Part shown: positions 1-63,397 of the stretch, piece after piece
Position numbering within the stretch: position 1 is the first letter of the stretch
How the letters are laid out: every line of letters begins with the position of its first letter
NCBI RefSeq assembly: GCF_035984545.1
Contig: NZ_JAXCHP010000001.1
Coordinates: forward strand, 806,001 to 870,000
Reading direction: 5' to 3'
From: Cryobacterium sp. GrIS_2_6
Lineage (GTDB): Bacteria; Actinomycetota; Actinomycetes; Actinomycetales; Microbacteriaceae
DNA: 64,000 bases
Made by a program: the position numbers and the translations under genes
The notes under the pieces: model-generated
What the model was told of the DNA's origin: nothing
Seen by the model: the letters and a program-made list of their open reading frames with translations, nothing else
Database searches by the model: none

Positions 1-802
1 TCTTGGCGGGTTGGCCGCGCATGGAGCTCATGACGAGCGCCTCCGACCCGCGGGTTTTGATCAGCGCCGAGGTGAGGAGCACGACAGCCTGCTTGATCGC
101 CTCGGGGAGGGCGGACACGTTCGCGCCCGCAGAGTGCAGGTTGACGAGAGGGGCGGCCAGTGTGGCAGTGTTGCCGGTCACGGAGAGCACGTTGACACGC
201 TCGCTCACACCCGGTTCATGGATGGTCAGTTGCATGCCCGGCAGGACGCCGAGAGTGGAGTCGACCAGGATTGTCGTTGCCCCGCCGTTCGTGGCCGCCG
301 TGAGGACGCTGTTCGCGTACCCGTTGACGTAGGTGACCGCGGCGTACAGGTACCCGGAGGCGGTGCGCGACGTTGCGCCGGGCATCGGGAACGACATGGC
401 CAGAATGGGGATCTCGGTGACCTTGCGGCCAACCCACACGTTGGACAGGTCCGGCAGGGAGGCCATCATGCTCGGCTGCGGGCCGACAGACACGTTCGTG
501 ACCTGAATGACAGGGGTGAAGGCGAGGGGAACCTTGAGGGTGCCCTCGTTGCTCACCCGGTACCGGCCCGCCTGCGTGTCCAAGGTCGCGCCGAGAATCT
601 GGTAGCAGTAGTCGTCAGCAAGCGAAGATGCGCGGGCGATGGTCTGGGAGAGGGCGTCCGCGTTCTGCTGCGGGGTGCCGCCCACAACGAGCTGGGAGAC
701 GTTCACGCCCGTGGGGGAGGCCAGATATTCGGCCGGGGTCAGATAGGGCGACCGGGAGGCGTACGTGGGGACGTACAGCGCCGAGGCGGGGGTGACAACC
801 AT
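1..802 (-). CDS. Head-tail adaptor, first copy, 3' end cut by window start
   Basis: Reads from an ATG at 802-800 toward position 1, where the window begins. The missing C-terminus is present in the second copy (52221-53103). The protein opens with short helices and a YCYQILG segment, then a beta-rich middle, and ends with a helix (EAIKQAVVLLTSALIKTRG), the layout of phage head-to-tail adaptors. It lies directly after the major capsid gene, where the connector ring gene is expected. This copy is in frame at the G5 run 788-792, while the second copy has G6 there and is frameshifted. Confidence 0.75.
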   Translation of the reverse strand, partial: MVVTPASALYVPTYASRSPYLTPAEYLASPTGVNVSQLVVGGTPQQNADALSQTIARASSLADDYCYQILGATLDTQAGRYRVSNEGTLKVPLAFTPVIQVTNVSVGPQPSMMASLPDLSNVWVGRKVTEIPILAMSFPMPGATSRTASGYLYAAVTYVNGYANSVLTAATNGGATTILVDSTLGVLPGMQLTIHEPGVSERVNVLSVTGNTATLAAPLVNLHSAGANVSALPEAIKQAVVLLTSALIKTRGSEALVMSSMRGQPAK

Positions 803-925
803 TGCGCACTCCAAAGTGTTGAGGTGAAACCCGACACCCCCCGATGGGAGGCAGACACCAGAGGGCGCCGGGGGTAGTGGGGTGGTGCCGCCGCGGCCCG
901 AAGGTCACGGCGGCACCGGAGGCCG

Positions 926-2374
926 CTAGTTAGCGGCGATGTCCTGCACGACCGCGCAGGCGACAGGAGCCCGGTTGATGAGCGTCGAGGTGGAGAAGAC
1001 TTCACCGTCGAAGCGGGGGCCGCCGCCGACGCCCGTGCCACGGTTGGTCGCGTACTCGTAGTCGGCGACGTCGTGCAGCGAGCGGACCTCGAGCACGTTG
1101 CTGATGTTCGAGTTCGGGAACGGCACCGTGTCGCTGACGGCGATGAGGGTTCCGGGGGTGAGGTTCGGGTGAACCTCGATCCGGACCGGGACACCGCCGG
1201 CAGCCTTGTTCACGTAGTGCGTGACGTAGCCGCCACCGGTCACGTCCGTGCGTCCTTCGGCGCCCGGGGTGAAGAACGTGTTCGCGGCACCGTTGGCGAG
1301 GAGCAGCTTGCTGATGCTGTTCGATTCCTGCGCGGACACGAGGTAGCGGGTCGGGGAGAGCTGCACCGTGTTGAAGATGCGTGTGTTGAGCGCGTCGAGC
1401 TCGTTGATGGACTGGCCCGAGCTGGTGAATGTGGAACCGCCGAGGCTGGTGAACCCGGCACCCGAGTTGATGCCGGAGCCGCGGGTGACGAGGCCCGTTG
1501 CACCACCGGTCACGTAGTCACCCGCGAGGGTGGCGAGCAGGCCGTTGAAGTCCGTCGCCTTGGCCGAGGAATCAGCGACGGGGACAGAGGTCGGCGCGAC
1601 ACCGTAGATGCCGGGGAGGTTCGGGACGGGCTGGTTGGAACCGGCCGGGGTCGTCAGGAACGTGACCGTGTTGACGGTGGTCGTGGTGATGTAGAAACCG
1701 CCGACGAACCAGTCATAGGCGACAGCGCCGGGGATGCTGGCCACGGTTGCGGTCAGCGTCGAGGTTGCGCCGGTCGTGATCTGCGAACCCTGCGCGGAGG
1801 CGATGGTGGATCCGCCGTAGGAGTAGTTCGAGCCGGTGCGCGCCGCGACCTTGATCAGGTACGTGGCCGCTGCGACGGTTCCGCCCGTGGCCGCGGTGGC
1901 CGTGGTGGGCACGGCGGGAGTCGGCAGGGCGAAGTTCTGGCCGCCGAGCAGCTTCTTGTCCGAACCGATCTTCCACTGGTTCATCGCGTTGATGACGGCG
2001 ATGGTGCGCGCGTCCGCGAAGCCCTTGGCGAGGTCGATGGCGTCCTGGGTGACGGTGTAGCCGTAACCGAGCTTCGCGTACTGGCTGGACGCGTTGATCA
2101 TGTTCAGGATGGCCATCGGGGCCGGCGCGTCGAACGCGGTTCCGGGGTCGGACTGCAGGTTGTTGACGTTGGTCAGCACGCGCCACAGGGCCGCGGGACC
2201 GGCGACCTCGGGCGTGGAGCGCGCCAGGGAGTCGAGGAACGGCGTGTTGACGGGGATCTGGCTGATCCAGCCGGTGAGGTCCACGCCGGTGAGGCCGGTC
2301 GCGGTGGTCACCCCGGAGGACTGCGCCTTGTACAGCTGCACGAGAGTGTCGCGGGAAACGGAATCGAGATTCAC
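926..2374 (-). CDS. Major capsid protein
   Basis: About 482 aa. A GTG at 2398 is possible, but the GTG at 2374 follows a GAAAGG ribosome site about 7 nt upstream, giving MNLDSVSRDTLVQLYKAQ as N-terminus. The central part (NMINASSQYAKLGYGYTVTQ, FADARTIAVINAMNQWK) and the C-terminal RYLVSAQESNSISKLLLANG, VRIEVHPNLTPGTLIA and DYEYAT segments suit an HK97-fold shell protein. A Thr/Ala/Gly-rich beta segment around residues 160-230 (YLIKVAARTGSNYSYGG, AYDWFVGG) looks like an inserted Ig- or fibronectin-like domain. It follows scaffold and protease, as expected. The second copy carries two one-base insertions and is broken. Confidence 0.85.
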   Translation of the reverse strand: MNLDSVSRDTLVQLYKAQSSGVTTATGLTGVDLTGWISQIPVNTPFLDSLARSTPEVAGPAALWRVLTNVNNLQSDPGTAFDAPAPMAILNMINASSQYAKLGYGYTVTQDAIDLAKGFADARTIAVINAMNQWKIGSDKKLLGGQNFALPTPAVPTTATAATGGTVAAATYLIKVAARTGSNYSYGGSTIASAQGSQITTGATSTLTATVASIPGAVAYDWFVGGFYITTTTVNTVTFLTTPAGSNQPVPNLPGIYGVAPTSVPVADSSAKATDFNGLLATLAGDYVTGGATGLVTRGSGINSGAGFTSLGGSTFTSSGQSINELDALNTRIFNTVQLSPTRYLVSAQESNSISKLLLANGAANTFFTPGAEGRTDVTGGGYVTHYVNKAAGGVPVRIEVHPNLTPGTLIAVSDTVPFPNSNISNVLEVRSLHDVADYEYATNRGTGVGGGPRFDGEVFSTSTLINRAPVACAVVQDIAAN

Positions 2375-2399
2375 GATGATGCCTTTCAAAATGGGCACG

Positions 2400-2446
2400 A
2401 CAAAAAACCCCCGCGGTGGAGGGCTTGTCGAAGAGGGTTTTAGGGG
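2400..2446 (-). terminator. Terminator-like hairpin between scaffold and capsid genes
   Basis: On the minus strand AAAACCC is followed about 20 nt later by GGGGG and a run of six T. It lies in the 89-nt gap between the scaffold stop (2464) and the capsid start (2374). A partial terminator here could set the scaffold to capsid ratio, or the stem could act on the mRNA end. The stem is short and the loop long, so the call is tentative. Confidence 0.45.
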
Positions 2447-2463
2447 GTGTGGTTCAGTTGGAG

Positions 2464-3771
2464 CTAGACGAAACGGCTCCGAAGCTCCGCGTATGTGAGG
2501 GCCTGCTGCGCCGCCACCTTCTGCGCGGGCGGTGCATCCTCGACGGCCTTGCGGAGATCCGCGAACTCGTCAGTGGAAGCGTCGCGGGCAGGCATTCCGG
2601 CGGTACCGGTGCTCCCGTTCAGCAGTGGGCTCTTGCGATCGTCAGGCATCTTGCCGAGGTGCTCGACGCGCTCCTGCAAGCTCTTCACCAAGTCCACCAG
2701 GTCCGCATTTTCTGCGGCCTGCTTCGCGAACGGGGCGAGAGCTTCTGTGAGCGCGAGGGTGAACTCGTTATGGAGTGCCTTCGTGACGTTTTCGGGGTCC
2801 GTCACCACAGGCGACTGGACAGTTTTGGTGCCGGGGATGACAGCCTCAGCGGGGGCCACCTCGGGGGTGGGCTCGGCCGCGTCAGGTACGGCTGGCACGT
2901 CTTCGGTGCCGGAGGTGAGGTCTTCCGCACCCTCGTCGGAGGTCGCATCGGGTTCGGCAGCTTCCTCGGCGGGGGTCTCAGCAGCCTCCTCGGCGGGGGA
3001 ATCCTCCGCGGGAGCCTCCGGGGCGAACGTGGTCAGATTGGCCGCGTCGACGGAGCCGAGCACGCGCCCGCTCGCATCGTAGACGAGCACCTGCGGGTCA
3101 CCCTTGGCCTTCATGACCGGTTCGGCGACGGGCGGCAGGCTCGCAAGGACGTTCTGGATCGCCGCGGCCGCACCGCGCAGGGCAGACTCGTTGGCCGAGG
3201 ACAGCGCACGGCCAGCCTTCACGAACGCCGACAGGACCGCGCGGGCATCCTCAGCGGACTTCGCCACCGGCTGCTCCGACTCCGCCTGCTCGCCGACCGC
3301 ATACGGGGCGATCAGGTCGATGGCCTGATCCACGAGCTCGCACGCCGTCTGCAGATCCCACGAGTTGTCGTCGCAAGCCTCGGCGCCAGCGAAGACCTCT
3401 TCGGCCTCCCGCTGCGAGAGCAGGTCGAGGGCGCGCTTCACACCCGTGAGAACAGCGAGCTGCTCCCATGCGGTGGCAGCGTCCACGGCCTCCCATGCGG
3501 GGGAACCGGGCTCGTTCACGTCACCTTCTGCGGTTGCGGTGGGAGCCTCGAGGACTTCCTCGTCAGCCTTGATCACGGGTTCAGTCATGTCTTCGCCCTC
3601 CTGGGCTTGTTTGAGAAGTTCCCGCACCGCGTCTGCGGGGAGAAGATTGGGTGTGCTGTCGGACTTCATGAAGATGAAGTCGAGGCCGTTCGCCGCTTTG
3701 GATACGAGGTCGACGCGGGGAATCTTCGCGTCGATCACTTCGGTGAGTTCATCGTCGATGAGAGTGTGCAT
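2464..3771 (-). CDS. Putative scaffolding / capsid assembly protein
   Basis: 435 aa, ATG at 3771, three bases after the preceding stop. The first 35 residues (IPRVDLVSKAANGLDFIFMK) resemble the N-terminus of phage prohead assembly proteins that follow XkdF-type genes. The middle is very rich in Glu, Ala, Pro and Asp (about residues 235-320), and the C-terminal 100 residues are helical and probably coiled coil (LVDLVKSLQERVEHLGKM). Size, acidity and position just before the major capsid gene fit an internal scaffold, probably cleaved or expelled during maturation. The second copy has one extra T (55093-55097) and is split. Confidence 0.65.
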   Translation of the reverse strand: MHTLIDDELTEVIDAKIPRVDLVSKAANGLDFIFMKSDSTPNLLPADAVRELLKQAQEGEDMTEPVIKADEEVLEAPTATAEGDVNEPGSPAWEAVDAATAWEQLAVLTGVKRALDLLSQREAEEVFAGAEACDDNSWDLQTACELVDQAIDLIAPYAVGEQAESEQPVAKSAEDARAVLSAFVKAGRALSSANESALRGAAAAIQNVLASLPPVAEPVMKAKGDPQVLVYDASGRVLGSVDAANLTTFAPEAPAEDSPAEEAAETPAEEAAEPDATSDEGAEDLTSGTEDVPAVPDAAEPTPEVAPAEAVIPGTKTVQSPVVTDPENVTKALHNEFTLALTEALAPFAKQAAENADLVDLVKSLQERVEHLGKMPDDRKSPLLNGSTGTAGMPARDASTDEFADLRKAVEDAPPAQKVAAQQALTYAELRSRFV

Positions 3772-3774
3772 GGG

Positions 3775-4152
3775 TTATGCCCTTCGCTTGCGAGTGGCAG
3801 AGCCCTGTGGGCTGAAGCCGGTTAGTTTTCCTGACTTGACGAGCTCCCACGACACCTCGTCGAGGAGCGCCTTGATCAGCCAGTCACCCTTGGAGGCGAC
3901 CACTTCGCCGTCGATGACGAACGGGTCATCGGACGGCCACGTGTACGACTCGCACACCTCGGCATGACCGATCGTCCCGTCCATGTGCTCGATGCCGATC
4001 TGCCGGCCGCCGTCACGGAGGAACGTGGCGGCGGCCTTCTCCAACTCGTCAGCGGTGAAATAGTCCCGGGAGCCATCCGCGCCCTTCTTGATGCGCGGAT
4101 CCGGACCCGCCTGATATGCGACGCCGAGCACGATCCGGAGTTCCTTGGCCAT
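3775..4152 (-). CDS. XkdF-like putative prohead serine protease
   Basis: 125 aa. The ATG at 4152-4150 with AAGGA upstream is chosen over longer upstream starts, which would read through the portal 3' end. It contains GVAYQAGPDPRIKKGADG, DYFTADELEKAAATFLRDG, the IGIEHMDGTIGHAEVCESYT segment and a C-terminal WELVKSGKLTGFSPQGSA. The conserved H (EHMDG) and the GFSP ending are typical of XkdF-type phage proteases. It lies 8 nt after the portal-MuF stop and just before the scaffold, so it is probably the maturation protease acting on scaffold and capsid N-termini. Confidence 0.7.
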   Translation of the reverse strand: MAKELRIVLGVAYQAGPDPRIKKGADGSRDYFTADELEKAAATFLRDGGRQIGIEHMDGTIGHAEVCESYTWPSDDPFVIDGEVVASKGDWLIKALLDEVSWELVKSGKLTGFSPQGSATRKRRA

Positions 4153-4160
4153 GTCAGTCC

Positions 4161-7100
4161 TTACTCGGTTGCGTCGATGGTGCGAATGTTGGACCCGTTG
4201 ATTGACTCGACCACCGGGGAGGCCGCACACCGACAGTTGTGAACCACAATTCCATTTGCCAAATACCACCCGTGCGTGGTGTTGCAGTTGTACACTTGGG
4301 TATGAGCAAAATATCTCTTGACACTCAATACCTTGTTCGCGAATACCTCGGGGGAACTAGCGAGAAGGCTCTCGCAGTATCCTTCGGCGTCGACCGCCGC
4401 GTGATCCGTCGGCATCTCATCGAGGCCAACATCCAGCCCCGAGATAGGAGTTCCGCCATGCTTGTTCGCATGTCCCGTTTGGGCGTCGAGGGCAGGCTGT
4501 CCCTCACGACCGCTGCTCATGAGGCCGTCCGGGGCAGCACTCAAAGCGATAGCATCAAGGCCGAGAGAGCTAGACGCAACGCGATCTACTTGCCCAACGT
4601 GAGCGTTTATGAGGACGCCCTCGTCGCCGGACTTGTCACGCGCGAGGTTGCCTTCACGAGGCAGCTCGCCTGCGGACCGTACAACGTAGACGTGGCCCTC
4701 GGAACCGTCGCCGTGGAAGTCCTCGGCGGCGCTTGGCATCGGTCCAAATCTCACGGGGAGCGCATCCGCTACCTCCTTGATAGTGGCTTCGATGTTCTCT
4801 ACATCTGGTCCGCCTTCAAGTACAGGGTCGACAGCGCCACGGCTGAGCACGTAATCGCCTTCACGGAGGTCGCCGGCCGGGACCCATCCATCAACCGTCG
4901 CTACCGGGTGATTCGGGGTAATGGTCAGTTTCTGGCCGAGTTCCGTCACAATGTCGATGAAATCCCCGACATAGTGCCGTTCAGTGACCGACCCGAGACC
5001 GAGCCAGCTACCGTGCCCTACGGAATCTGCCACTGCGGATGCGGTCGCACGACCGCCATCGCCAAATCCGACCGACGAGGCCACCTCAAGGGCGAACCGA
5101 TGACTTATATCAGCGGGCACAACCAGGCCCGTCGCGGCAGGTAAGCAGCGCGGGTGCACAGGCGGGGAATTGTCCGTGTCCGTGACCGGGTGCGGGTTGG
5201 CGGCCGCCACGTCGACACACTCGGAGCACGCGTCGTCGGAGAGGATCAGATCCCAGGAACCGACCCCGCTGGCGGAGTAGGAGTCGAGGGAGCCGAGGGT
5301 TTGCGCGCGGGCGATCTCCGTGTGAGCGATCAGTTGAGCCCGGGAATCCGAGCCGATCAGGTCGCTGATGGTGCCCGCGATCTTCTCTGACGACCAGCCA
5401 GAGTCAAGCCCTGAGCTGATCCGGTTCCCGACCTGATCGAGCACCGTGTCTTCGATGCCCTTGACTGTGATCCCAGCACTATCCAGCAGCGCCCTCAGGC
5501 CGCCGTCAGCGACCAGTGAGGCAGCCTGCGCATCACCGGGCACCCAGGCGTCCCAATTGACGTCAGCAACGGCCTGACCGGTCATCCCGGCCACACTCAC
5601 CGCATGCGCGCCCAACTGCTGCGCCGCACCATGAGCACCCGTCAGATACCCGTCCGCGAGAAGCTGCCGAAGCACCGACTCGATCTGCGAACTGTCCGCG
5701 TTCGCGCCCAACATCTGCCGGGCCCGTGCGAACATCGCATCGCTGGCCGCATCCTTGACCAGTGCGCCCGAAAGCGAACCGATCACACCGGCCACGTCCA
5801 TCGACGCCAGCAGCGCCCGCATTGCGGTTGCCACAAGCGGCGTGTAGTGGTCGGTCAGGCGCAGATCGAATGCATGCTGGGGCACTTTGTCCGAAGAATC
5901 GCGCCACGACTTCTCAATCGCGGCGGGCACTAAAAAAGGGACGCTCTCACGTCCCTTCTTGTTCAGCATCTCCGCAATGTCCGGCGGGGCGACCTCGAAC
6001 TGGAAATCTCGCCACTTGCCCGCCTTCACCCGTGTCTTCGTGAACGAGCGGAATTTCACCAGCTCAGCCTGCAAAGCGTCCGTGGCATCCTTCATCTTCA
6101 CCGGCCCCTCCAAAGAGGAACCCGTCAGCCCGGTTGCAGCGGTGACCCCGGCCGTCTCGGCCTTCGTGATCGCACCGCCCACCGTGGGCATGCCATTCAC
6201 GACATCGGACCCGGGGATGATGTGCTCAAGGTCCGGGAACGCGGGTTCGTCCGGGTTCGTCGGGGCCCGTTTGAAATCGGTCCCGCCTGGCAGCTTGTCC
6301 GGCAGGATCCCGCCGGCGCCCGCGAACGCGTCCAACCCCAACGGTTGCGCGTCGCTCGGCGCGCCCGTCTGTCCGTCGATCGTGCCAGAAATGGCCAGGA
6401 TCGACGTCAACGGGACGAACCCGGTGCGAGCGGTGATGATGCCGCGAGGGATCGGGCGCTCGTTATCCACCGGCAAGCCCAGGAGCTCCTGACGCATCTC
6501 GTCCATGGACGCCGCGCCAGTCTTGACGTACACCTCCCACGCCTGCGCCTCCATGAGACGGTCCTCTTTGTCCCGGCCGGTGTCCAGAGACACGCGCACG
6601 GGCAGGCCGAGGTCGTGCTGCAGGTAACGGTTCAGGATCTGCTCCACGAACCGCACCCACGGCAGGGTGTTCACGCGGAACTGGATGTCGACCTGCGTCT
6701 CACCGTTGGCCCGGTTCACGTCTTTCAGAAGACCGAGATCCTGCGGGACCACGCCATACGCCGCGGCGACACGCGTCACGAGGTAGTCAGGGAACAGCGG
6801 GTCGAAACCCTTGGGCCGGGTCTCCGAAATCTTGAAACCGGCCGGCACTGCGACGAGCTGGTGCAGCTTGGCCTGATCGCCCTGCACCACAGCGTCGTAG
6901 TAGTCCTGCCATTCCGCCACCTGATCCGGCGACGAAATATCCGGGGGCAGCTCCATGAACCCGGCCGGGACAGACCCGTCCGTGAACATCTGCAACAGGT
7001 GCCACTGGAAACGCATGTCCGTGTTCGCGGTCAGCATGATCGACTCGAGCGGCGCCAAACCGAACGGGGAATCCCCCTGCGGGCGGAACCGGGCGTAAAT

Positions 7101-7730
7101 GAGATCCTCGGCCGTGTACGACGACCACGACTGGCCCTTGATCACCTGGTAGTAGGCAGGGGCGGGGGCATGAGGGCGGCGGCCGTGCGCGTCGATGCTC
7201 GGGAACACCGTCGAACCGTCGAGAATTTCCAGGCCGATGATCTGCCCGGCCATGTTCCGGCGGCGGTAAAGCACCCCGGCGTCGTAGCGCAGCTGGTTTT
7301 CCATCCAGATCGACAGCCACTCGTCGTACGGGTGCTCCCGGTCCGGGAAAGCCAGCACCGCGCGCGCCGCCTCGATGGCATCCTTCACATCCGAGGTCAC
7401 GCCGGTGGCCGCCTGAAACAGGAGGCCCATCGACCGGATCTCATCGATTTTATGGTTAATGCACATACGAGAAACGTCGTAGGAGTTGACCATCTCGCGC
7501 AGAGTATCGTACGAGGTGCGGCCCCACGCCTGCCGGGACCGAACCGCAAGGTTCACCCCAACCGGGAAGTCCATCGCCCGCGGCACCTGCGAGTACCCCG
7601 TCGACGGGACAGCCGGGCGACCCGGGCCCATCATCGTGGAACCCGTCATGCCCTGATCGGTCATGGCCTGATCGATCGCAGCCGGGACGCCGAAACCAAA
7701 GGACTTTGCAAGCCGTTCGAAGATACCCAT
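4161..7730 (-). CDS. Portal-MuF fusion protein interrupted by an intein
   Basis: 1189 aa precursor. ATG at 7730 with GGAGG 5 nt upstream overlapping the terminase stop. Residues 1 to about 480 form a portal domain (VRSRQAWGRTSYDTLREMV, YYQVIKGQSWSSYTAEDLIY, GLAPLESIMLTANTDM, NRYLQHDLGLPVRVSLDTG). Residues about 560-885 of the spliced product form a MuF minor head domain (LIAHTEIARAQTLGSLDSY, DDACSECVDV, PPVHPR). Residues 862-1165 are an intein. Its removal joins VHPR to CRCAASPVV and restores the MuF HPxCRC motif, leaving an 885-aa protein. Fusing portal and MuF is unusual but not unique. A terminator-like hairpin lies in the linker near residue 593. Confidence 0.9.
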   Translation of the reverse strand: MGIFERLAKSFGFGVPAAIDQAMTDQGMTGSTMMGPGRPAVPSTGYSQVPRAMDFPVGVNLAVRSRQAWGRTSYDTLREMVNSYDVSRMCINHKIDEIRSMGLLFQAATGVTSDVKDAIEAARAVLAFPDREHPYDEWLSIWMENQLRYDAGVLYRRRNMAGQIIGLEILDGSTVFPSIDAHGRRPHAPAPAYYQVIKGQSWSSYTAEDLIYARFRPQGDSPFGLAPLESIMLTANTDMRFQWHLLQMFTDGSVPAGFMELPPDISSPDQVAEWQDYYDAVVQGDQAKLHQLVAVPAGFKISETRPKGFDPLFPDYLVTRVAAAYGVVPQDLGLLKDVNRANGETQVDIQFRVNTLPWVRFVEQILNRYLQHDLGLPVRVSLDTGRDKEDRLMEAQAWEVYVKTGAASMDEMRQELLGLPVDNERPIPRGIITARTGFVPLTSILAISGTIDGQTGAPSDAQPLGLDAFAGAGGILPDKLPGGTDFKRAPTNPDEPAFPDLEHIIPGSDVVNGMPTVGGAITKAETAGVTAATGLTGSSLEGPVKMKDATDALQAELVKFRSFTKTRVKAGKWRDFQFEVAPPDIAEMLNKKGRESVPFLVPAAIEKSWRDSSDKVPQHAFDLRLTDHYTPLVATAMRALLASMDVAGVIGSLSGALVKDAASDAMFARARQMLGANADSSQIESVLRQLLADGYLTGAHGAAQQLGAHAVSVAGMTGQAVADVNWDAWVPGDAQAASLVADGGLRALLDSAGITVKGIEDTVLDQVGNRISSGLDSGWSSEKIAGTISDLIGSDSRAQLIAHTEIARAQTLGSLDSYSASGVGSWDLILSDDACSECVDVAAANPHPVTDTDNSPPVHPRCLPAATGLVVPADISHRFALEVASSVGFGDGGRATASAVADSVGHGSWLGLGSVTERHYVGDFIDIVTELGQKLTITPNHPVATVDGWVPAGDLREGDYVLSRGAVDPVLEGGPDVENIEATIKEVADALPVRFGPMPSAAEDFHGDGSEGHVYVVRSAGELPREGNLARDKSGDEGVLINAHVGQVDRVASSSLGLDAIALSAAPDGLMSSGREGQPALDAQTGHANKHGGTPISGLDVGLDEMPTDHAAVDAEGYCESLLASSPEVFANKVLSVKRYFAHTQVYNCNTTHGWYLANGIVVHNCRCAASPVVESINGSNIRTIDATE
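4291..4296 (+). promoter_or_regulatory. Candidate -10 box for the antisense endonuclease gene
   Basis: TACACT ends 5 nt before the ATG at 4302, the spacing expected for a leaderless actinobacterial transcript starting at or near the start codon. The HTH gene at 12330 has the same TACACT 6 nt before its ATG. No convincing -35 hexamer is seen. The box lies opposite intein block F codons (VYN), so promoter and splicing motif share bases. Confidence 0.45.
4302..5144 (+). CDS. Vsr/EDxHD-like homing endonuclease encoded antisense to the intein
   Basis: 280 aa from ATG 4302. The frame is open from a GTG at 4239, opposite the intein penultimate His codon, to TAA at 5142-5144, opposite intein codon 2. 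Residues 10-45 form an HTH (EKALAVSFGVDRRVIRRHLI). Residues about 100-170 form a PD-(D/E)xK-type core: E104, D130 in CGPYNVDVALG, E139 in VAVEVLGGAWH, H146, then LLDSGFDVLYIW. Residues 240-275 hold CHCGCG and YISGH, a zinc-knuckle module known from free-standing phage homing endonucleases. An internal ATG at 4458 has AGGAG 7 nt upstream and would give an HTH-less 228-aa form. Codons 4422-4541 have 30 of 40 third positions G/C. No copy exists elsewhere in the unit. The nuclease assignment is by motif only. Confidence 0.85.
   Translation: MSKISLDTQYLVREYLGGTSEKALAVSFGVDRRVIRRHLIEANIQPRDRSSAMLVRMSRLGVEGRLSLTTAAHEAVRGSTQSDSIKAERARRNAIYLPNVSVYEDALVAGLVTREVAFTRQLACGPYNVDVALGTVAVEVLGGAWHRSKSHGERIRYLLDSGFDVLYIWSAFKYRVDSATAEHVIAFTEVAGRDPSINRRYRVIRGNGQFLAEFRHNVDEIPDIVPFSDRPETEPATVPYGICHCGCGRTTAIAKSDRRGHLKGEPMTYISGHNQARRGR
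5932..5957 (-). terminator. Perfect terminator-like hairpin inside the portal-MuF gene
   Basis: On the minus (coding) strand AAGGGACG pairs with CGTCCCTT across a 6-nt loop and is followed by T6. It sits in frame near residue 593 (NKKGRESVPFL), in the linker between portal and MuF domains. The shape is that of an intrinsic terminator. Translation through it would normally prevent folding. Confidence 0.55.
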
Positions 7731-7733
7731 GCG

Positions 7734-9284
7734 TTACCTCCGGGCTTTCAGATCATTAGCGATTTCGCGCCAGTTGCGCGCGATAGAGGGAACTTCGATG
7801 GCACGGTCAGCGGCCTGTTGCTTCCACGCCGACAGGAACACCACACCCGCCCCGGTGCCCTGAATGAACATCCGGTATAAGGCCTGAGACGCGCCGTCCA
7901 CCTGGTCGTCGTGCGCGCCGTTCGGGAAGGAAGCGCACTCGTCCACGAACTCGTCACCCCACTGGCCCGCCCACACGTGCACGTTGCCCGCCTCGATGAA
8001 CGGGGCCACAGCGTTCGCGCGGGAATACTTGGACTCTTTCGGGGTGATCGGGACGATCCCGCCAATTTTTGATTTCAACGTGTCGATGACAGCGGAACCG
8101 TTCGCCTTGTCCTCGACGAGCTTGGCGGTCGCCTGCGGCCACTTCAGCACCAGCCGTTCGAACGCGGCAATGGTCTGCGTGAATGACATCCGGCGGTGTA
8201 CCTGATCGACGAGGAAGACGTCGGCGCCCTTCCGTGCCCACACCTGCCCGACCACAAAGTCGGAGCCCTTCGTGTCCTTGAACGTCATGTCCCAAGACAT
8301 GAGCATTTCGTCGCACTCCATACGGCAGACACCGTTCACGTTCGCCCACATCGGCTCCGTGAAACGCTGCCACCACTGTCGCTGCCACACGTTGCCGGTA
8401 TCCGGTGACGGGCGGCCCTGATACAGGGAGTTGAACACTCGAGAGCCCGCACGCACCTGAATGGCCTGCCACTGCTCCACCGTGCGACCCCGGGCAGACG
8501 TCAACCACTCGCCCGGCTTCCGGCCCAACAGATCCGTCTCGCCCAGCTCAGGCTTGTGATCAGCGAGCGCGGGAATGTTCACCACAGTCCACAGGTGACC
8601 GTCATCAGCAGCCAACAGACGGCCGGCCAGGTCATCCTCATGCCAACGCGTCAGAATGACAATCACCGGGGCACCAGGGGCCAGACGTGTCGAACCGACC
8701 GACTGCCACCAATCCCACGCCTGATTCCGGTAATACTCCGAATCAGCCTGCGCAGCATCAGCCACCGGGTCATCAATGACCAGCAGATCCAGCGGGCGAC
8801 CCGTCAAACCGGAACCGATACCCACACAGACGACGCCGCCGCGGTGACCATTCAACTGCCAACGCTTGGCCGCACCATTGTCCGGGGCAATCCGCAAACC
8901 CAGATCCAGCTCACCCTCGTCACCGTTATTGTTCGCGATCCAGTTGCGAATCTCACGCCCGAAACCCTCAGCCAAGGTCTGCGAATACGAAGCGATGCCC
9001 ACCCGAAGATCCGGGTTCTGCAACAGCGCCCACAGCACGCCCGTCTTCGTGACCCTCTGGCTTTTGCCCTCCTGAGGGGGCAGGGACACGATCAGGCGGC
9101 CATCAGGAGTATTCAGCACCTTCACCAGCGCCTCATCGATGACCGACAGCGCCTCCGTCTGCACCGTCTTCACATCGATCGCCCGAGCCAAATCACCCGG
9201 CGTCTCCCACCGAACAACCGGAGGGGCAAACCGGGCCAACGCCGCATCAAACGCAGCCAGATCAAGCGAGGAAAAACCCGACAT
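7734..9284 (-). CDS. Terminase large subunit
   Basis: 516 aa. The ATG at 9284 has AGGAGGG 7 nt upstream, preferred to the ATG at 9308. ATPase: Walker A variant LPPQEGKSQ near residue 70, Walker B LDLLVIDDP near 170, and a coupling ILTRWHEDDLAGRLL. RNase H-like nuclease: SWDMTFKDT (about 325), KLVEDKANG (about 375) and HDDQVDG (about 455) supply the acidic residues. It is the ATP-driven motor and nuclease that packages DNA into proheads through the portal encoded next to it. It is separated from the small subunit gene by an unusual 690-bp gap. Confidence 0.93.
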   Translation of the reverse strand: MSGFSSLDLAAFDAALARFAPPVVRWETPGDLARAIDVKTVQTEALSVIDEALVKVLNTPDGRLIVSLPPQEGKSQRVTKTGVLWALLQNPDLRVGIASYSQTLAEGFGREIRNWIANNNGDEGELDLGLRIAPDNGAAKRWQLNGHRGGVVCVGIGSGLTGRPLDLLVIDDPVADAAQADSEYYRNQAWDWWQSVGSTRLAPGAPVIVILTRWHEDDLAGRLLAADDGHLWTVVNIPALADHKPELGETDLLGRKPGEWLTSARGRTVEQWQAIQVRAGSRVFNSLYQGRPSPDTGNVWQRQWWQRFTEPMWANVNGVCRMECDEMLMSWDMTFKDTKGSDFVVGQVWARKGADVFLVDQVHRRMSFTQTIAAFERLVLKWPQATAKLVEDKANGSAVIDTLKSKIGGIVPITPKESKYSRANAVAPFIEAGNVHVWAGQWGDEFVDECASFPNGAHDDQVDGASQALYRMFIQGTGAGVVFLSAWKQQAADRAIEVPSIARNWREIANDLKARR

Positions 9285-9973
9285 CAGGAAGCCCTCCTGA
9301 CTGCCCAACGGGCAAGAAAATATTTATGGGGGAGCAGGACCAACCAGACCGGAAACCCCGCCAGATCGACCCACAACCCCGGGGGACGCCACACCAGCCC
9401 AACCAGACCGGGAGAAAACGGTTTGGAGTCGAAAAAACCGGGGAAATGGGTGTGGGGGGTATTGCGGATTGGCCGTCACCTCTTTGGGGGGTGCGCTGAA
9501 AACTGACGGAAGTTTGAACCGGCCGGCGTAGTCGTGTCTGTGTGCGGCCTTGTGCGTCTGTGTGGGGCGTTGGATGTTCGGCGGGTGCGTCCGTCGCGGC
9601 GGTGCGTCACTGTGGCTCGTGTGTGGCCGTGGTGGCGTGCCGGGGTGATTGTGTGGCTGCCGGGTGCGGTCGTGGGTGCTCTGCCGCGTGCTCGCTGGGG
9701 TGGCGAGGTCGTGGCGGGCGGCCGTGTCGAGGTGTGGCCGGCCCGGGGTTGCCTGTTGTCTGTCCTGTTCGGCGTGTCGTCGACTGGGCGGGGCGTGAGG
9801 CGGGCGAATCAGGTGGGGGAAAGTGCTTGGGAATGGGTGGGTTTAGCCGGGCTGAAATCCGGGGTTATCCACAGGAAAAAGGCCGAAACTGACATAATAC
9901 TGTTTATCGGTCACTTTTTCACCGAAGTTATCCACAGGGTAAATGCTCACCTGAAAATGTTCATGCCCCCATT
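9285..9973. other. Long non-coding gap between terminase genes
   Basis: About 690 bp without a convincing gene. The part from 9530 to 9830 is strongly G/T-rich on the plus strand, unlike neighbouring coding DNA. Two DnaA-box-like sites and an A/T-rich stretch lie near 9865-9936. Candidate roles are the late promoter, the packaging recognition site (cos or pac), or a replication site. Open plus frames here have no protein-like composition. Confidence 0.6.
9865..9936 (+). promoter_or_regulatory. Two perfect DnaA boxes in the terminase gap
   Basis: TTATCCACA at 9865-9873 and again at 9928-9936, same orientation, with A/T-rich DNA between them (CATAATACTG, TTTATCGG). The nonamer is the consensus DnaA box. 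Two exact direct copies 63 bp apart in G+C-rich DNA are unlikely by chance. They could bind host DnaA for replication or regulate the late operon promoter. Confidence 0.6.
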
Positions 9974-10573
9974 TTATCGGGCATTCAACTCCCCGGCAGC
10001 AGCCAGGACCAGAGTCTCCCGCATCAGCCCCGGCATCAGCGACTTCTGCGCCGCACTCAACCCCAGCTGGGCCGAGTCGAGGACCGTCGTCAACACCATG
10101 GCCATAAGCTCGCCTTGACGTTCAGCGAGACGCACCTGACGTTCACCAAGACCCGCCTGCACCGCCTTACTCGCGAAGGTGGCCAGACGGTCACGCTCCA
10201 AAGACTCCAACTGTGCAAGACCGCGAATGTACTCGCCGACCTTGCCGAACTCGCCCATCGCATCACCGACCAGCGCATCACGCAGCGTGGGGGACTCAGC
10301 GACCAGCTTCTCCAACTCGGCACTGTACGCATCCACGCGCATCCGCGACTGAGTGACCAGGCGCAGCAGGACCTCGCCCGGATCGTCCACAGCCTCACCC
10401 AAAGCCCACTTCGACAGCTGCGCGCGCACCATCGCACTCGACCGAACCTGAGGGGCAGCACCGCCATGAAAGCGACACACCATCCCCCCAGCAATCGCCG
10501 AGTGCCCACACGGGCCGCCGCCATCTTTCTTCTGTGCCGTGCACATCTGCTTGACGACGTAAGCCCGAGGCAT
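9974..10573 (-). CDS. Terminase small subunit (putative)
   Basis: 199 aa, ATG 10573. The N-terminus carries a Cys/His cluster (CTAQKKDGGGPCGHSAIAGG followed by CRFHGGAAPQV) common in actinophage proteins encoded before the large terminase. It is followed by helical segments (LLRLVTQSRMRVDAYSAELE, GEYIRGLAQLESLERDRLA), suited to an oligomeric DNA-recognition subunit. Position is the main support for the name. The Cys/His cluster may bind zinc. Confidence 0.7.
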   Translation of the reverse strand: MPRAYVVKQMCTAQKKDGGGPCGHSAIAGGMVCRFHGGAAPQVRSSAMVRAQLSKWALGEAVDDPGEVLLRLVTQSRMRVDAYSAELEKLVAESPTLRDALVGDAMGEFGKVGEYIRGLAQLESLERDRLATFASKAVQAGLGERQVRLAERQGELMAMVLTTVLDSAQLGLSAAQKSLMPGLMRETLVLAAAGELNAR

Positions 10574-10639
10574 CGAATCTCCCTACTGGGTATACATTCA
10601 CCAAAGGGTGAGGCTCAGGCGTCCGGGTCGTGTGTGCGT

Positions 10640-11077
10640 TCATTCGGGGATGTACACCCACCGGTTGGTTTGTGGGTTGATGCCTGCGAGCTTGTAGCGT
10701 GCTGCACTGGCGGGTATGACTGTCACGGGGCCGTCGCTCATGAAGAGCTGCGGGACTACGACCACGGGGAGCATGATGTGTGCCATCCCGTTGTGTGATT
10801 TGACGAGCATGCCGTCGTGGGCGCCGCCTTCGATTTCGATGGGCTTGGCGTCTTCGGGGTGCCATGTGGCGGTGATGGTGCGCTCGAGGGTCGCGGTGTC
10901 TTCGCGTGCAGAGTATTGGACCGCTTCGGGGTCGAAGTCGCAGAGGCCGTGAGTGTCGGCGTATGTGACCATTTCGCGCTGGAGCTGATCGTGTGCCCAG
11001 CTTTCGGCTTCGGCCTGCAACATGATTGTTGGGTCTGAGATGTGCATCTTGGCGTGGAACGGGGCGACGTAGCTCAT
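10640..11077 (-). CDS. Hypothetical protein
   Basis: 145 aa, ATG 11077 with AAGGAG upstream. It has an N-terminal helical part (TIMLQAEAESWAHDQLQREM) and a beta-rich C-terminal half (GMAHIMLPVVVVPQLFMSDG). No family is recognised. It is the last gene before the small terminase, so probably co-transcribed with the packaging genes. Confidence 0.65.
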   Translation of the reverse strand: MSYVAPFHAKMHISDPTIMLQAEAESWAHDQLQREMVTYADTHGLCDFDPEAVQYSAREDTATLERTITATWHPEDAKPIEIEGGAHDGMLVKSHNGMAHIMLPVVVVPQLFMSDGPVTVIPASAARYKLAGINPQTNRWVYIPE

Positions 11078-11092
11078 TGGTCTCCTTCGCCC

Positions 11093-11224
11093 TTATCGGG
11101 TGCTCGGGTGCGCTTCGGCCAGGTGTTGGTCTATCTCTGTGGTGTCCCACACGCTTCGGACGTCGACCTGTGTTCCGCAGTGGTGGCAGGTGGCTGTGAT
11201 CGTCTGTGCTCGTTGGTCACTCAT
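11093..11224 (-). CDS. Small zinc-finger-like protein
   Basis: 43 aa, ATG 11224, overlapping the upstream stop by 8 nt. CHHCG near residue 13 and a C-terminal HLAEAH form a C2H2-like pattern. Such mini zinc fingers are common among small actinophage genes. Role unknown. Confidence 0.6.
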   Translation of the reverse strand: MSDQRAQTITATCHHCGTQVDVRSVWDTTEIDQHLAEAHPSTR

Positions 11225-11558
11225 GGGCGCCGTGTATCGCGTCCGTGTGTGCTGCGAGTAGCTGGTCATACGTCAACGTGCTGCCACCGATGATCGCTAG
11301 GACGCAGCGGGTGCAGGTGGAGAGTGTCTCGGGGGCGTTGGTGTGTGCGTTGGTGCGCGAAGTGTTGTCCGTGAGCCATGGTGGCTTGACGGGCGTCGCG
11401 TGCGGAGGCTTGCGGGATGTGCGCTCCCACGCTGCGCTGTACAGGCGGGGCTGGTACTCGGTGAAGCTCAGGAGGAGCGAGCCCTCCCTGTTGTCCCAGT
11501 ACCCTGCCCGGGCGTCTTCGATACCGGCGCGGATCGCGCGTGCGTGACTGGTCTTCAC
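11217..11558 (-). CDS. Hypothetical protein with CTRC motif
   Basis: 113 aa, ATG 11558 overlapping the previous stop as ATGA. The N-terminal half (ARAIRAGIEDARAGYWDNRE) is basic and helical. A single CTRC lies near residue 82. Function unrecognised. Tight coupling to both neighbours supports expression. Confidence 0.65.
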   Translation of the reverse strand: MKTSHARAIRAGIEDARAGYWDNREGSLLLSFTEYQPRLYSAAWERTSRKPPHATPVKPPWLTDNTSRTNAHTNAPETLSTCTRCVLAIIGGSTLTYDQLLAAHTDAIHGAHE

Positions 11559-12049
11559 TGGGTGGCCTTCCCTCTCGGGCTGAAGTATGCGGCGTTGAGG
11601 TCGCGGGGTGGGCAGCTTGCCTGCGCAGATCCGGATCCGGGCGAGGGTGGCGGGTTCTGCGGGCCAGCGTTACTCGTGCGGGGCTGCGAACCTTTGGAGA
11701 TTGGTGTTCCGACGGGGCGAGGCCGCTTTGCCGCTGCGCTGTCCGAAGCTGGCGCGACTGCGGTGGGTGCAGATGTCGGCTCGGGTACGAACGCGAGGAG
11801 GTCCCTTGCCCGGTTCCATTCGCGGCGGTTGAACAGCTTGGGGAGGTCTTCCCACGCCCATGTGCCGGGGCATTGCATGCGGCCGTTGGTCTTGGCGACG
11901 ATTTGGATGCGGCCGTGTTCGCATTCGCGGAGGTCGTCGAGCCTGAATAGCTTCGGGCCGCTGAGGTGGTCACGGCTGGGCGGGTTGGCCAGTGCCCGGC
12001 AGTGTGTGGCGTGCTGACGGGGCCGGTCGTCGTTCAGGTTCGGGGTCAC
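11555..12049 (-). CDS. Hypothetical protein with disordered tail
   Basis: 164 aa from GTG 12049, which overlaps the preceding TGA (GTGA). The first 90 residues look folded (KLFRLDDLRECEHGRIQIV, WAWEDLPKLFNRREWNRARD). The remainder is rich in Pro, Ala and Ser. No family recognised. The 5' part is not present in the second copy, which ends at 64000. Confidence 0.6.
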   Translation of the reverse strand: MTPNLNDDRPRQHATHCRALANPPSRDHLSGPKLFRLDDLRECEHGRIQIVAKTNGRMQCPGTWAWEDLPKLFNRREWNRARDLLAFVPEPTSAPTAVAPASDSAAAKRPRPVGTPISKGSQPRTSNAGPQNPPPSPGSGSAQASCPPRDLNAAYFSPRGKATQ

Positions 12050-52224: not shown

Positions 52225-53103
52225 TGCGTCCTCCGGTGACGGGACAGCCATTCGACGGCGAGGTCGATCTCTTCGAGGCCGCCATCCTCGACCTTGGCTG
52301 TCTTGGCGGGTTGGCCGCGCATGGAGCTCATGACGAGCGCCTCCGACCCGCGGGTTTTGATCAGCGCCGAGGTGAGGAGCACGACAGCCTGCTTGATCGC
52401 CTCGGGGAGGGCGGACACGTTCGCGCCCGCAGAGTGCAGGTTGACGAGAGGGGCGGCCAGTGTGGCAGTGTTGCCGGTCACGGAGAGCACGTTGACACGC
52501 TCGCTCACACCCGGTTCATGGATGGTCAGTTGCATGCCCGGCAGGACGCCGAGAGTGGAGTCGACCAGGATTGTCGTTGCCCCGCCGTTCGTGGCCGCCG
52601 TGAGGACGCTGTTCGCGTACCCGTTGACGTAGGTGACCGCGGCGTACAGGTACCCGGAGGCGGTGCGCGACGTTGCGCCGGGCATCGGGAACGACATGGC
52701 CAGAATGGGGATCTCGGTGACCTTGCGGCCAACCCACACGTTGGACAGGTCCGGCAGGGAGGCCATCATGCTCGGCTGCGGGCCGACAGACACGTTCGTG
52801 ACCTGAATGACAGGGGTGAAGGCGAGGGGAACCTTGAGGGTGCCCTCGTTGCTCACCCGGTACCGGCCCGCCTGCGTGTCCAAGGTCGCGCCGAGAATCT
52901 GGTAGCAGTAGTCGTCAGCAAGCGAAGATGCGCGGGCGATGGTCTGGGAGAGGGCGTCCGCGTTCTGCTGCGGGGTGCCGCCCACAACGAGCTGGGAGAC
53001 GTTCACGCCCGTGGGGGAGGCCAGATATTCGGCCGGGGTCAGATAGGGCGACCGGGAGGCGTACGTGGGGACGTACAGCGCCGAGGCGGGGGGTGACAAC
53101 CAT
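52221..53103 (-). CDS. Head-tail adaptor, second copy, complete but frameshifted
   Basis: Complete 3' end. The protein would be 293 aa if the G6 run at 53088-53093 were G5 as in the first copy. The extra base lies five codons after the ATG (53103) and breaks the frame. C-terminus: EAIKQAVVLLTSALIKTRG, then KVEDGGLEEIDLAVEWLSRH. See the entry at 1-802 for the role. Confidence 0.75.
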
Positions 53104-53226
53104 TGCGCACTCCAAAGTGTTGAGGTGAAACCCGACACCCCCCGATGGGAGGCAGACACCAGAGGGCGCCGGGGGTAGTGGGGTGGTGCCGCCGCGGCCC
53201 GAAGGTCACGGCGGCACCGGAGGCCG

Positions 53227-54677: not shown

Positions 54678-54767
54678 GATGATGCCTTTCAAAATGGGCA
54701 CGACAAAAAACCCCCGCGGTGGAGGGCTTGTCGAAGAGGGTTTTAGGGGGGTGTGGTTCAGTTGGAG

Positions 54768-56076: not shown

Positions 56077-56079
56077 GGG

Positions 56080-56457: not shown

Positions 56458-56465
56458 GTCAGTCC

Positions 56466-59400
56466 TTACTCGGTTGCGTCGATGGTGCGAATGTTGGACC
56501 CGTTGATTGACTCGACCACCGGGGAGGCCGCACACCGACAGTTGTGAACCACAATTCCATTTGCCAAATACCACCCGTGCGTGGTGTTGCAGTTGTACAC
56601 TTGGGTATGAGCAAAATATCTCTTGACACTCAATACCTTGTTCGCGAATACCTCGGGGGAACTAGCGAGAAGGCTCTCGCAGTATCCTTCGGCGTCGACC
56701 GCCGCGTGATCCGTCGGCATCTCATCGAGGCCAACATCCAGCCCCGAGATAGGAGTTCCGCCATGCTTGTTCGCATGTCCCGTTTGGGCGTCGAGGGCAG
56801 GCTGTCCCTCACGACCGCTGCTCATGAGGCCGTCCGGGGCAGCACTCAAAGCGATAGCATCAAGGCCGAGAGAGCTAGACGCAACGCGATCTACTTGCCC
56901 AACGTGAGCGTTTATGAGGACGCCCTCGTCGCCGGACTTGTCACGCGCGAGGTTGCCTTCACGAGGCAGCTCGCCTGCGGACCGTACAACGTAGACGTGG
57001 CCCTCGGAACCGTCGCCGTGGAAGTCCTCGGCGGCGCTTGGCATCGGTCCAAATCTCACGGGGAGCGCATCCGCTACCTCCTTGATAGTGGCTTCGATGT
57101 TCTCTACATCTGGTCCGCCTTCAAGTACAGGGTCGACAGCGCCACGGCTGAGCACGTAATCGCCTTCACGGAGGTCGCCGGCCGGGACCCATCCATCAAC
57201 CGTCGCTACCGGGTGATTCGGGGTAATGGTCAGTTTCTGGCCGAGTTCCGTCACAATGTCGATGAAATCCCCGACATAGTGCCGTTCAGTGACCGACCCG
57301 AGACCGAGCCAGCTACCGTGCCCTACGGAATCTGCCACTGCGGATGCGGTCGCACGACCGCCATCGCCAAATCCGACCGACGAGGCCACCTCAAGGGCGA
57401 ACCGATGACTTATATCAGCGGGCACAACCAGGCCCGTCGCGGCAGGTAAGCAGCGCGGGTGCACAGGCGGGGAATTGTCCGTGTCCGTGACCGGGTGCGG
57501 GTTGGCGGCCGCCACGTCGACACACTCGGAGCACGCGTCGTCGGAGAGGATCAGATCCCAGGAACCGACCCCGCTGGCGGAGTAGGAGTCGAGGGAGCCG
57601 AGGGTTTGCGCGCGGGCGATCTCCGTGTGAGCGATCAGTTGAGCCCGGGAATCCGAGCCGATCAGGTCGCTGATGGTGCCCGCGATCTTCTCTGACGACC
57701 AGCCAGAGTCAAGCCCTGAGCTGATCCGGTTCCCGACCTGATCGAGCACCGTGTCTTCGATGCCCTTGACTGTGATCCCAGCACTATCCAGCAGCGCCCT
57801 CAGGCCGCCGTCAGCGACCAGTGAGGCAGCCTGCGCATCACCGGGCACCCAGGCGTCCCAATTGACGTCAGCAACGGCCTGACCGGTCATCCCGGCCACA
57901 CTCACCGCATGCGCGCCCAACTGCTGCGCCGCACCATGAGCACCCGTCAGATACCCGTCCGCGAGAAGCTGCCGAAGCACCGACTCGATCTGCGAACTGT
58001 CCGCGTTCGCGCCCAACATCTGCCGGGCCCGTGCGAACATCGCATCGCTGGCCGCATCCTTGACCAGTGCGCCCGAAAGCGAACCGATCACACCGGCCAC
58101 GTCCATCGACGCCAGCAGCGCCCGCATTGCGGTTGCCACAAGCGGCGTGTAGTGGTCGGTCAGGCGCAGATCGAATGCATGCTGGGGCACTTTGTCCGAA
58201 GAATCGCGCCACGACTTCTCAATCGCGGCGGGCACTAAAAAAGGGACGCTCTCACGTCCCTTCTTGTTCAGCATCTCCGCAATGTCCGGCGGGGCGACCT
58301 CGAACTGGAAATCTCGCCACTTGCCCGCCTTCACCCGTGTCTTCGTGAACGAGCGGAATTTCACCAGCTCAGCCTGCAAAGCGTCCGTGGCATCCTTCAT
58401 CTTCACCGGCCCCTCCAAAGAGGAACCCGTCAGCCCGGTTGCAGCGGTGACCCCGGCCGTCTCGGCCTTCGTGATCGCACCGCCCACCGTGGGCATGCCA
58501 TTCACGACATCGGACCCGGGGATGATGTGCTCAAGGTCCGGGAACGCGGGTTCGTCCGGGTTCGTCGGGGCCCGTTTGAAATCGGTCCCGCCTGGCAGCT
58601 TGTCCGGCAGGATCCCGCCGGCGCCCGCGAACGCGTCCAACCCCAACGGTTGCGCGTCGCTCGGCGCGCCCGTCTGTCCGTCGATCGTGCCAGAAATGGC
58701 CAGGATCGACGTCAACGGGACGAACCCGGTGCGAGCGGTGATGATGCCGCGAGGGATCGGGCGCTCGTTATCCACCGGCAAGCCCAGGAGCTCCTGACGC
58801 ATCTCGTCCATGGACGCCGCGCCAGTCTTGACGTACACCTCCCACGCCTGCGCCTCCATGAGACGGTCCTCTTTGTCCCGGCCGGTGTCCAGAGACACGC
58901 GCACGGGCAGGCCGAGGTCGTGCTGCAGGTAACGGTTCAGGATCTGCTCCACGAACCGCACCCACGGCAGGGTGTTCACGCGGAACTGGATGTCGACCTG
59001 CGTCTCACCGTTGGCCCGGTTCACGTCTTTCAGAAGACCGAGATCCTGCGGGACCACGCCATACGCCGCGGCGACACGCGTCACGAGGTAGTCAGGGAAC
59101 AGCGGGTCGAAACCCTTGGGCCGGGTCTCCGAAATCTTGAAACCGGCCGGCACTGCGACGAGCTGGTGCAGCTTGGCCTGATCGCCCTGCACCACAGCGT
59201 CGTAGTAGTCCTGCCATTCCGCCACCTGATCCGGCGACGAAATATCCGGGGGCAGCTCCATGAACCCGGCCGGGACAGACCCGTCCGTGAACATCTGCAA
59301 CAGGTGCCACTGGAAACGCATGTCCGTGTTCGCGGTCAGCATGATCGACTCGAGCGGCGCCAAACCGAACGGGGAATCCCCCTGCGGGCGGAACCGGGCG

Positions 59401-60035: not shown

Positions 60036-60038
60036 GCG

Positions 60039-62878: not shown

Positions 62879-62944
62879 CGAATCTCCCTACTGGGTATAC
62901 ATTCACCAAAGGGTGAGGCTCAGGCGTCCGGGTCGTGTGTGCGT

Positions 62945-63382: not shown

Positions 63383-63397
63383 TGGTCTCCTTCGCCC

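Follow-up and report, generated by a model that had tools for sequence, protein, structure and literature searches.

A predicted homing endonuclease gene on the opposite strand of an intein in a phage portal-MuF gene

Can one stretch of DNA encode a splicing intein on one strand and, codon for codon, the enzyme that spreads this intein on the other? The question is raised by a stretch of 64,000 nucleotides from Cryobacterium sp. GrIS_2_6 (contig NZ_JAXCHP010000001.1, positions 806,001 to 870,000; the whole stretch is called the window below, and its own numbering is used), in which a phage gene for a portal protein fused to a MuF-like domain is interrupted by an intein (4236..5147, minus strand). 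A sequence-only reading of the window had proposed that this intein lacks an endonuclease in its own frame, that the plus strand of the same 912 bp encodes one, and that a single selfish unit thus uses both strands. The proposal is supported by the nuclease fold predicted for the plus-strand protein, by selection in both frames and by exact empty sites in relatives. We consider it very likely that this intein and a predicted homing endonuclease of the Vsr/EDxHD type, encoded on the opposite strand, are the two halves of one element; the endonuclease probably cuts intein-free MuF genes.

The intein and the protein encoded opposite it

The host gene (4161..7730, minus strand) is one continuous open reading frame (ORF 7730-4161) of 1189 amino acids running across both exteins and the intein, and its Pfam matches are to Phage_portal (2.1e-21), to Phage_Mu_F (0.0012, under the curated cut-off) and to Intein_splicing, PF14890 (1.3e-7, slightly under the curated cut-off). 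The N-extein (5148..7730, minus strand) ends ...PPVHPR and the C-extein (4161..4235, minus strand) begins CRCAASPVV..., which places HPR upstream and CRC downstream of the intein. The coordinates first proposed proved exact, since 4236-5147 makes 304 codons in the minus frame of this ORF, from C1 to N304 and followed by Cys+1. The proposed splicing residues (C1, T77, H80, H303, N304 and Cys+1) are all present, and C1, T77, H80 and N304 are invariant across 38 aligned inteins. A Hint fold is predicted over residues 1-304, residues 146-253 are predicted to be disordered, and Intein_splicing is matched by 51 of the 53 sense ORFs of the family. In canonical large inteins, blocks B and F flank an in-frame endonuclease domain. 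The window intein has none there, and no endonuclease family is found among the 12 families matched by the 53 sense ORFs (E 0.01), as the sequence-only reading had claimed for the intein's own frame. With its splicing residues and predicted Hint fold, the intein appears to belong to the Hint-type class 1 inteins and, to judge from its motifs, should splice.

On the plus strand no stop interrupts the frame between 4206 and a TAA at 5142-5144, and homologues, the antisense alignment A1 and a predicted fold point to a homing endonuclease gene within it (4302..5144, plus strand; 280 amino acids from ATG 4302, with TTG 4296 as an alternative in-frame start). By their coordinates the two frames are codon-opposite: the codon borders coincide, and sense position 3 faces antisense position 1. 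The stop (5142..5144, plus strand) is the reverse complement of the codon for intein Leu2 (TTA). Predicted helices form a helix-turn-helix (HTH) at residues 8-41 (4323..4424, plus strand), and HTH_58 is matched by 24 of the 28 members of A1 (E 0.1). The predicted fold places a Vsr/EDxHD-like nuclease domain at residues 98-214 (4593..4943, plus strand), with a putative active site (4611..4739, plus strand) made of E104 (4611-4613), D130 (4689-4691), E139 (4716-4718) and H146 (4737-4739), whose equivalents are retained in 180, 182, 182 and 176 of 183 loci; their catalytic role, and which residue does what, we assume by analogy with Vsr. A CxCxC domain lies near the C-terminus (5010..5123, plus strand; phrog_25114, 8e-6), opposite the N-terminal part of the intein. 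All the parts named beforehand, HTH, Vsr/EDxHD-like domain and CxCxC, are therefore present in the window, but the last is not general in the family, with aligned residues in its columns in 13 of 183 loci.

Six of the 43 homologues of the antisense protein are named "very-short-patch-repair endonuclease" by their source. No relative came up when viral contigs were scanned with the window protein as a single query. When the predicted fold was searched with Foldseek the top match was a homing endonuclease, and the closest solved homing endonuclease by predicted fold is I-Bth0305I. The plus-strand protein thus does match a nuclease fold in a predicted-structure search, the check that the sequence-only reading had suggested, and structure searches that name no other fold leave other families possible. 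On these grounds it seems to have both the Vsr-like catalytic fold and the conserved acidic and His putative active-site residues of an EDxHD/Vsr-like homing endonuclease. In P0004, P0006, P0007, P0036 and other long homologues at least two tandem N-terminal HTH units are apparent, and the sense-strand intein would be longer as a result.

The family, its constraint and its mobility

When 50,697 phage records were searched by tblastn, 119 were matched by the sense query and 125 by the antisense query, with phages of Salmonella (63 sense, 62 antisense), Gordonia (15, 15), Pseudomonas (14, 15), Klebsiella (8, 8) and Vibrio (4, 4) among them, and the two matches coincide in place in the records listed for both (Fosterous, LP31, AH01, Snoke). 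Profile scans with A1 gave further loci, 80 of 280 viral and 22 of 57 genome stretches. The genome-record titles name Acidimicrobiaceae, Firmicutes, Gordonia, Micromonospora, Mycolicibacterium, Streptomyces, Ornatilinea, Anaerolineaceae, Gemmatimonadales, Rubellimicrobium, Peregrinibacteria, Lamprocystis, Scytonema and others, of which single host names may be wrong, because most genome-contig loci come from metagenome bins. The same layout on two strands is seen again in sequences of phages and of bacterial genomes from several phyla. With three phage records and the window, the 102 scan loci make 106, and in every one of them the codon-opposite sense frame is free of stops throughout the antisense match; a stop within the antisense match occurs in 4, two of which (L002, L087) are matches overrunning the gene end and two (L076, L107) early stops.

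A less biased sample came from a search with 39 residues of sense blocks F and G plus the first extein residues. Among its best 80 of 442 loci 26 were already known, and 51 of the 54 others carry the antisense gene (E<1e-20), a proportion that holds for near relatives in blocks F and G, because the sense query was built from antisense-selected loci. The three without it are two contig ends (L110, L127) and a shortened remnant (L163), and one stop lies inside the profile match in 14 of the 80, in some merely the gene's own end. Intein ends, set by pattern, bounded 101 of the 106 loci and left 5 unbounded; several are misplaced (L050, L055, L059, L082, L091, L104 and L107 among them), and 73 of 91 dereplicated loci were kept as having plausible ends. 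Addition of the 76 of 80 sense-selected loci with a recognisable C1 made 149, which were dereplicated to 116 inteins. The first antisense stop falls at most 20 codons from C1, or beyond it, in 109 of the 116, and exactly opposite codon 2 in 44; single offsets may be wrong because C1 was picked by pattern. Frequent antisense stops in relatives, which the sequence-only reading had named as telling against itself, did not turn up: at most 7 of the 116 stop early. In four of these the stop lies just 24-29 codons ahead of C1 and in one (L098) upstream of the likely start, and clearly internal stops are confined to two inteins (L076, L135).

Both proteins are constrained, each most strongly in its own part. 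Sense codons that would make an antisense stop (TTA, CTA, TCA) account for 3 of 3527 Leu and Ser codons in the nuclease span versus 267 of 3335 in the N-exteins (91 loci), and for 1 of 1027 versus 153 of 870 in the 25 loci below 60% guanine plus cytosine (GC); even at 43-60% GC the loci keep the antisense frame open. Exteins and splicing blocks change fastest at the sense third position. In the core of the nuclease the order is different: the sense first position, which is the antisense wobble, diverges more than the third in 37 of 40 pairs. Of the three pairs that do not fit, one is alone in the closest divergence bin and the other two come from one further bin each (pairs here and in the omega estimates are independent inside a bin and not across bins). 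The N-extein has the usual order in all 40. When every change was classed by its effect on both strands (8 and 14 pairs), antisense omega was 0.28 (0.23-0.33) and 0.30 (0.26-0.33) in the core and 0.78 and 1.01 in the N-exteins, and sense omega was 0.67 and 0.53 in the core and 0.12-0.30 in the splicing blocks, where antisense omega was 0.34-0.52. Purifying selection in both frames, which had been proposed as a test, is thus found, near 0.3 for the antisense core and at 0.12-0.30 for the sense blocks. Per-codon hydropathy of the two strands is opposed (r -0.72, 116 loci), with little difference in the means.

Mobility was examined around Escherichia coli phage Snoke, whose MuF gene is at least 80% covered in 70 of 497 matching records (Guernseyvirinae and relatives); in an even sample of 60 rows 9 were full length and 48 fell into two or three pieces with 46-56% coverage. 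The exteins of Escherichia coli phage fFiEco03 are 91.2% identical to those of Snoke and exactly the 816 bp of the intein are absent, as they are from Salmonella phage Jersey. Since the intein is present or absent at an exact site in close relatives, it was gained or lost there, and these exact empty sites support its mobility. Intein identity exceeds extein identity in all six pairs compared (for instance 95.8% and 75.4% for Snoke and UPWr_S2, 88.0% and 65.8% for AH01 and L223). For the window phage itself, megablast of 11.8 kb against phage records gave no match, and the MuF N-extein matched only the window's own genome among 57 genomes of the genus.

Some members of the family depart from the common plan. 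L163, with its antisense nuclease remnant, is possibly a mini-intein derived from a two-strand one. The intein of L083 (~3113-4084) apparently starts with Ala in place of Cys1 (HPNGR|AELPNN), reminiscent of class 2 inteins or of a decaying splicing site. In L019 and L034 an intein of the same family sits at another Cys (before VRCLAY or LTCLA) and not at the HPxC...CRC site, which suggests that the endonuclease has changed its target. In block G of L042 additional residues separate the usual motif from the final HN, and the end of this intein is uncertain. In the records of phages PK1, PK2 and vB_StyS-sam two extra hypothetical proteins lie under the match beside the head morphogenesis protein. 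Ten Intein_splicing matches occur in G149 (L200), a genome of 1.5 Mb from the window's phylum.

Candidate control signals within the splicing motifs

In most relatives, a point missed by the sequence-only reading, the intein itself contains a -10-like box, a candidate ribosome site and also the nuclease gene's start and stop codons. In 91 of the 116 inteins an antisense start codon stands 60 nt from the base opposite the final Asn, facing the His of "HVYNL" in block F, and a further 11 have an ATG at 66; block F spacing is regular in 95. At 8 bases upstream of the start, opposite "NL", the sequence is GAGG in 65 of 116, AAGG in 20 and GAGA in 13. These signals are not merely protein conservation seen from the other side, because the synonymous choice is biased: block F His is CAT in 70 of 92 cases versus 162 of 495 in exteins (P 1e-14), and block F Leu is CTC in 79 of 109 versus 658 of 2288 (P 5e-20). 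In block G, neighbouring Ile columns use ATT (69% versus 21%) and ATA (55% versus 10%), which read TATAAT on the antisense strand, and TGT precedes the box in 26 of 95, as in an extended -10 box. General AT-richness is an inadequate explanation, because neighbouring Ile residues take different codons and Leu takes CTC.

In a codon simulation (synonymous codons drawn from the locus's own exteins, three registers, 1000 draws) TANNNT appeared in a mean of 9.3 inteins and at most 17, versus 76 of 116 observed, and perfect TATAAT in a mean of 1.6 and at most 7, versus 29 of 116; CAT was expected 29.5 times versus 70 of 92 seen, and CTC 26.8 times versus 67 of 92. At the other end of the gene, Leu2 is TTA or CTA in 46 of the 54 inteins that have it, versus 181 of 2288 extein Leu (P 1.5e-40). 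No such bias is found at the penultimate His, the final Asn, Cys+1 or the block B His (CAT 27/114). None of nine ordinary inteins of the window's phylum (the 9 of 29 loci that could be parsed) has a TATAAT-like antisense box or an antisense nuclease match.

In the window, CACAAT (4 of 6 bases) stands at the position of the box (4245..4250, plus strand) and GCAG in place of GAGG at that of the ribosome site (4284..4304, plus strand), where the codon at +60 is TTG (4296) and ATG follows at 4302. The antisense frame and its conserved residues are intact here; the expression signals are weaker than in most relatives, which makes the activity of this copy uncertain. A second copy, 100% identical, lies in the next tandem prophage unit (56541..57452, minus strand; G000:C1:862541-863452), and the host assembly holds the intein three times about 52.3 kb apart (G000:C1 810236, 862541, 914843). 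Window positions 1-11690 and 52301-63995 align over 11,695 positions with 99.96% identity and 5 gaps; these repeats are tandem lysogens or an effect of assembly.

Readings of the element and known systems

The data are most simply read as a homing intein that has its endonuclease gene on the antisense strand. On the sense strand the intein would be translated with MuF and then splice itself out, as its intact motifs and predicted Hint fold suggest; the sense stretch opposite the nuclease core, being a predicted disordered loop, would mainly need to stay open. On the other strand, in most relatives, a unit with a TATAAT-like box opposite block G, GAGG and a start opposite block F, and a stop opposite or near intein residue 2 would yield the endonuclease from its own message, with no separate gene space. 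The nuclease, from its fold, residues and distribution, would cut the intein-free MuF site, and repair would copy the whole 912 bp in, as is established for homing generally. Splicing, antisense transcription, cleavage and homing are steps that we infer. Beyond the window, there is probably a widespread ambigrammatic class of mobile elements of about 0.8-1.2 kb, in which two enzymes are encoded codon-opposite and the splicing motifs serve as the control signals of the other strand. The homing gene would then be complete and expressible at hardly any extra length, and neither function could easily be lost without damage to the other.

Several observations weigh against this account. The Foldseek E-values of the antisense protein are modest (2.8e-3), taken alone it gives only weak nuclease and HTH hints in Pfam and PHROGs, under the Pfam cut-offs, and a sequence-only search of the PDB with the antisense profile found no nuclease. 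Among the 116 inteins a start codon is at neither expected place in 14 and TANNNT is absent from 40, and several other block F and G columns are biased too (Glu GAA, Asn AAT, Gly GGA), which is partly unexplained. The window's CACAAT and GCAG are weak versus the family's TATAAT and GAGG, and a sigma-70 scan of 3900-5300 found no promoter. Searches of the genus and of phage records found no intein-free close relative of the window's own MuF, and the higher identity of inteins than of exteins could come partly from the double coding constraint and not from transfer.

It could also be argued that the antisense frame is a by-product of GC-rich codon-opposite coding, its similarity merely mirroring the conservation of the intein. 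Openness alone is indeed weak evidence, cheap in GC-rich DNA, because the frames are codon-opposite and ordinary GC-rich inteins also stay open (4 of the 9 over 200 codons, those at 67-72% GC), and antisense and sense identity to the window are about equal in Salmonella phages (30.7% and 29.7% for LP31). It is in conservation that chance is exceeded: Gordonia phages have kept the antisense protein better than the sense one (44.0% versus 34.3% for Fosterous), the core evolves at the antisense wobble with an antisense omega near 0.3, the frame is open at 43-60% GC, and the antisense fold is predicted with confidence where the sense stretch is predicted disordered; we give this explanation almost no credence. 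Nor do we think, except as a very slim chance, that the nuclease gene is real and simply landed in MuF, with a sense frame that is open and does not splice. The nuclease does dominate the evolution of the core, and open out-of-frame HNH insertions are reported from phage methylases (PMC11855218), with no detectable splicing motifs; yet the four invariant residues, the Intein_splicing matches, the low sense omega of the splicing blocks and the predicted Hint fold over the whole intein all speak for splicing.

Another reading gives the antisense protein, as nuclease or DNA-binding regulator, a different purpose (repair, defence or packaging) and lets it hide in an intein. Its N-terminal HTH and the repair-endonuclease names of some homologues suggest this, and we find it very improbable. 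All 106 loci lie opposite an open sense frame, 101 of them with intein ends given by pattern, several misplaced (this placement covers the 106 loci), the distribution is sporadic with exact empty sites, and the top structural match is a homing endonuclease. A different proposal, compatible with our reading of the family, is that the window copy is fading: that it splices and is no longer expressed or homing. The weak box and degenerate ribosome site favour it, as do three identical copies in tandem prophages and a MuF matched in only 1 of 57 genomes of the genus, the window's own. Against it stand the intact 280-codon frame with its conserved residues, the retained ATG 4302 and TTA-derived stop, and intact genes in several inteins with poor boxes (L021 and L022, for example); we take fading seriously as a possibility while leaning away from it.

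A homing intein with an antisense endonuclease gene, then, remains our preferred reading, and it bears on a wider matter. When genes of bacteria or phages overlap in antisense, the overlap is often taken for an artefact. In this case a two-protein, two-strand overlap is backed by comparative data across several phyla and by a codon choice that builds a promoter-like box within catalytic motifs. If true, it would be a testable natural example of ambigrammatic coding and show a new way in which an intein can bring along its own mobility gene. The overlap with the splicing blocks is a possible reason why these inteins rarely shed the nuclease, and L163 shows that loss can happen. A second gene may also have been missed in more than 100 phage records (125 gave an antisense match) that are annotated as MuF or "head morphogenesis".

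How does such an element compare with known systems? With canonical large inteins it has the splicing blocks, the Hint fold and the logic of homing in common, and it differs in that the nuclease is on the other strand, overlapping the splicing blocks themselves. In the "fractured genes" of Dassa et al. 2009 a Vsr-like homing endonuclease gene reportedly lies between the two halves of a split intein. There too a Vsr-like nuclease is linked to inteins; here, in contrast, it is antisense within one contiguous intein, the window having one continuous sense ORF and the sense frame being open in all 106 loci. I-Bth0305I is intron-encoded, and we know of no double coding for it, unlike the present case. 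According to PMC3943268, it is a multi-domain phage enzyme, and in this it resembles the antisense protein. PMC9548176 describes I-DsqI, whose homing endonuclease gene lies antisense within a Didymium nuclear group I intron and was shown to be expressed and active; it is antisense to its host gene, as here, but an RNA-splicing intron need not encode protein on the opposite strand, whereas here both strands do. The HNH insertions of PMC11855218 likewise hide a homing endonuclease in another frame of an open insertion in a host gene, but on the same strand, of HNH type and without detectable intein motifs.

In a full-text literature search, judged by titles and the first lines of abstracts, no intein with an antisense endonuclease gene came up, with a possible overlap in an actinobacteriophage preprint (Gosselin et al. 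2025, bioRxiv 2025.01.02.630785), which PMC11855218 cites for overlapping reading frames in actinobacteriophages and which could already report this arrangement in Gordonia phages. The excerpts of PMC11855218, PMC9548176, PMC3943268, PMC8966425, PMC12350094, PMC6801210, PMC5050341 and PMC7765530 describe no two-strand intein. The element is still an intein with a homing endonuclease; what has no counterpart in these searches is the two-strand design with control signals set in the catalytic motifs.
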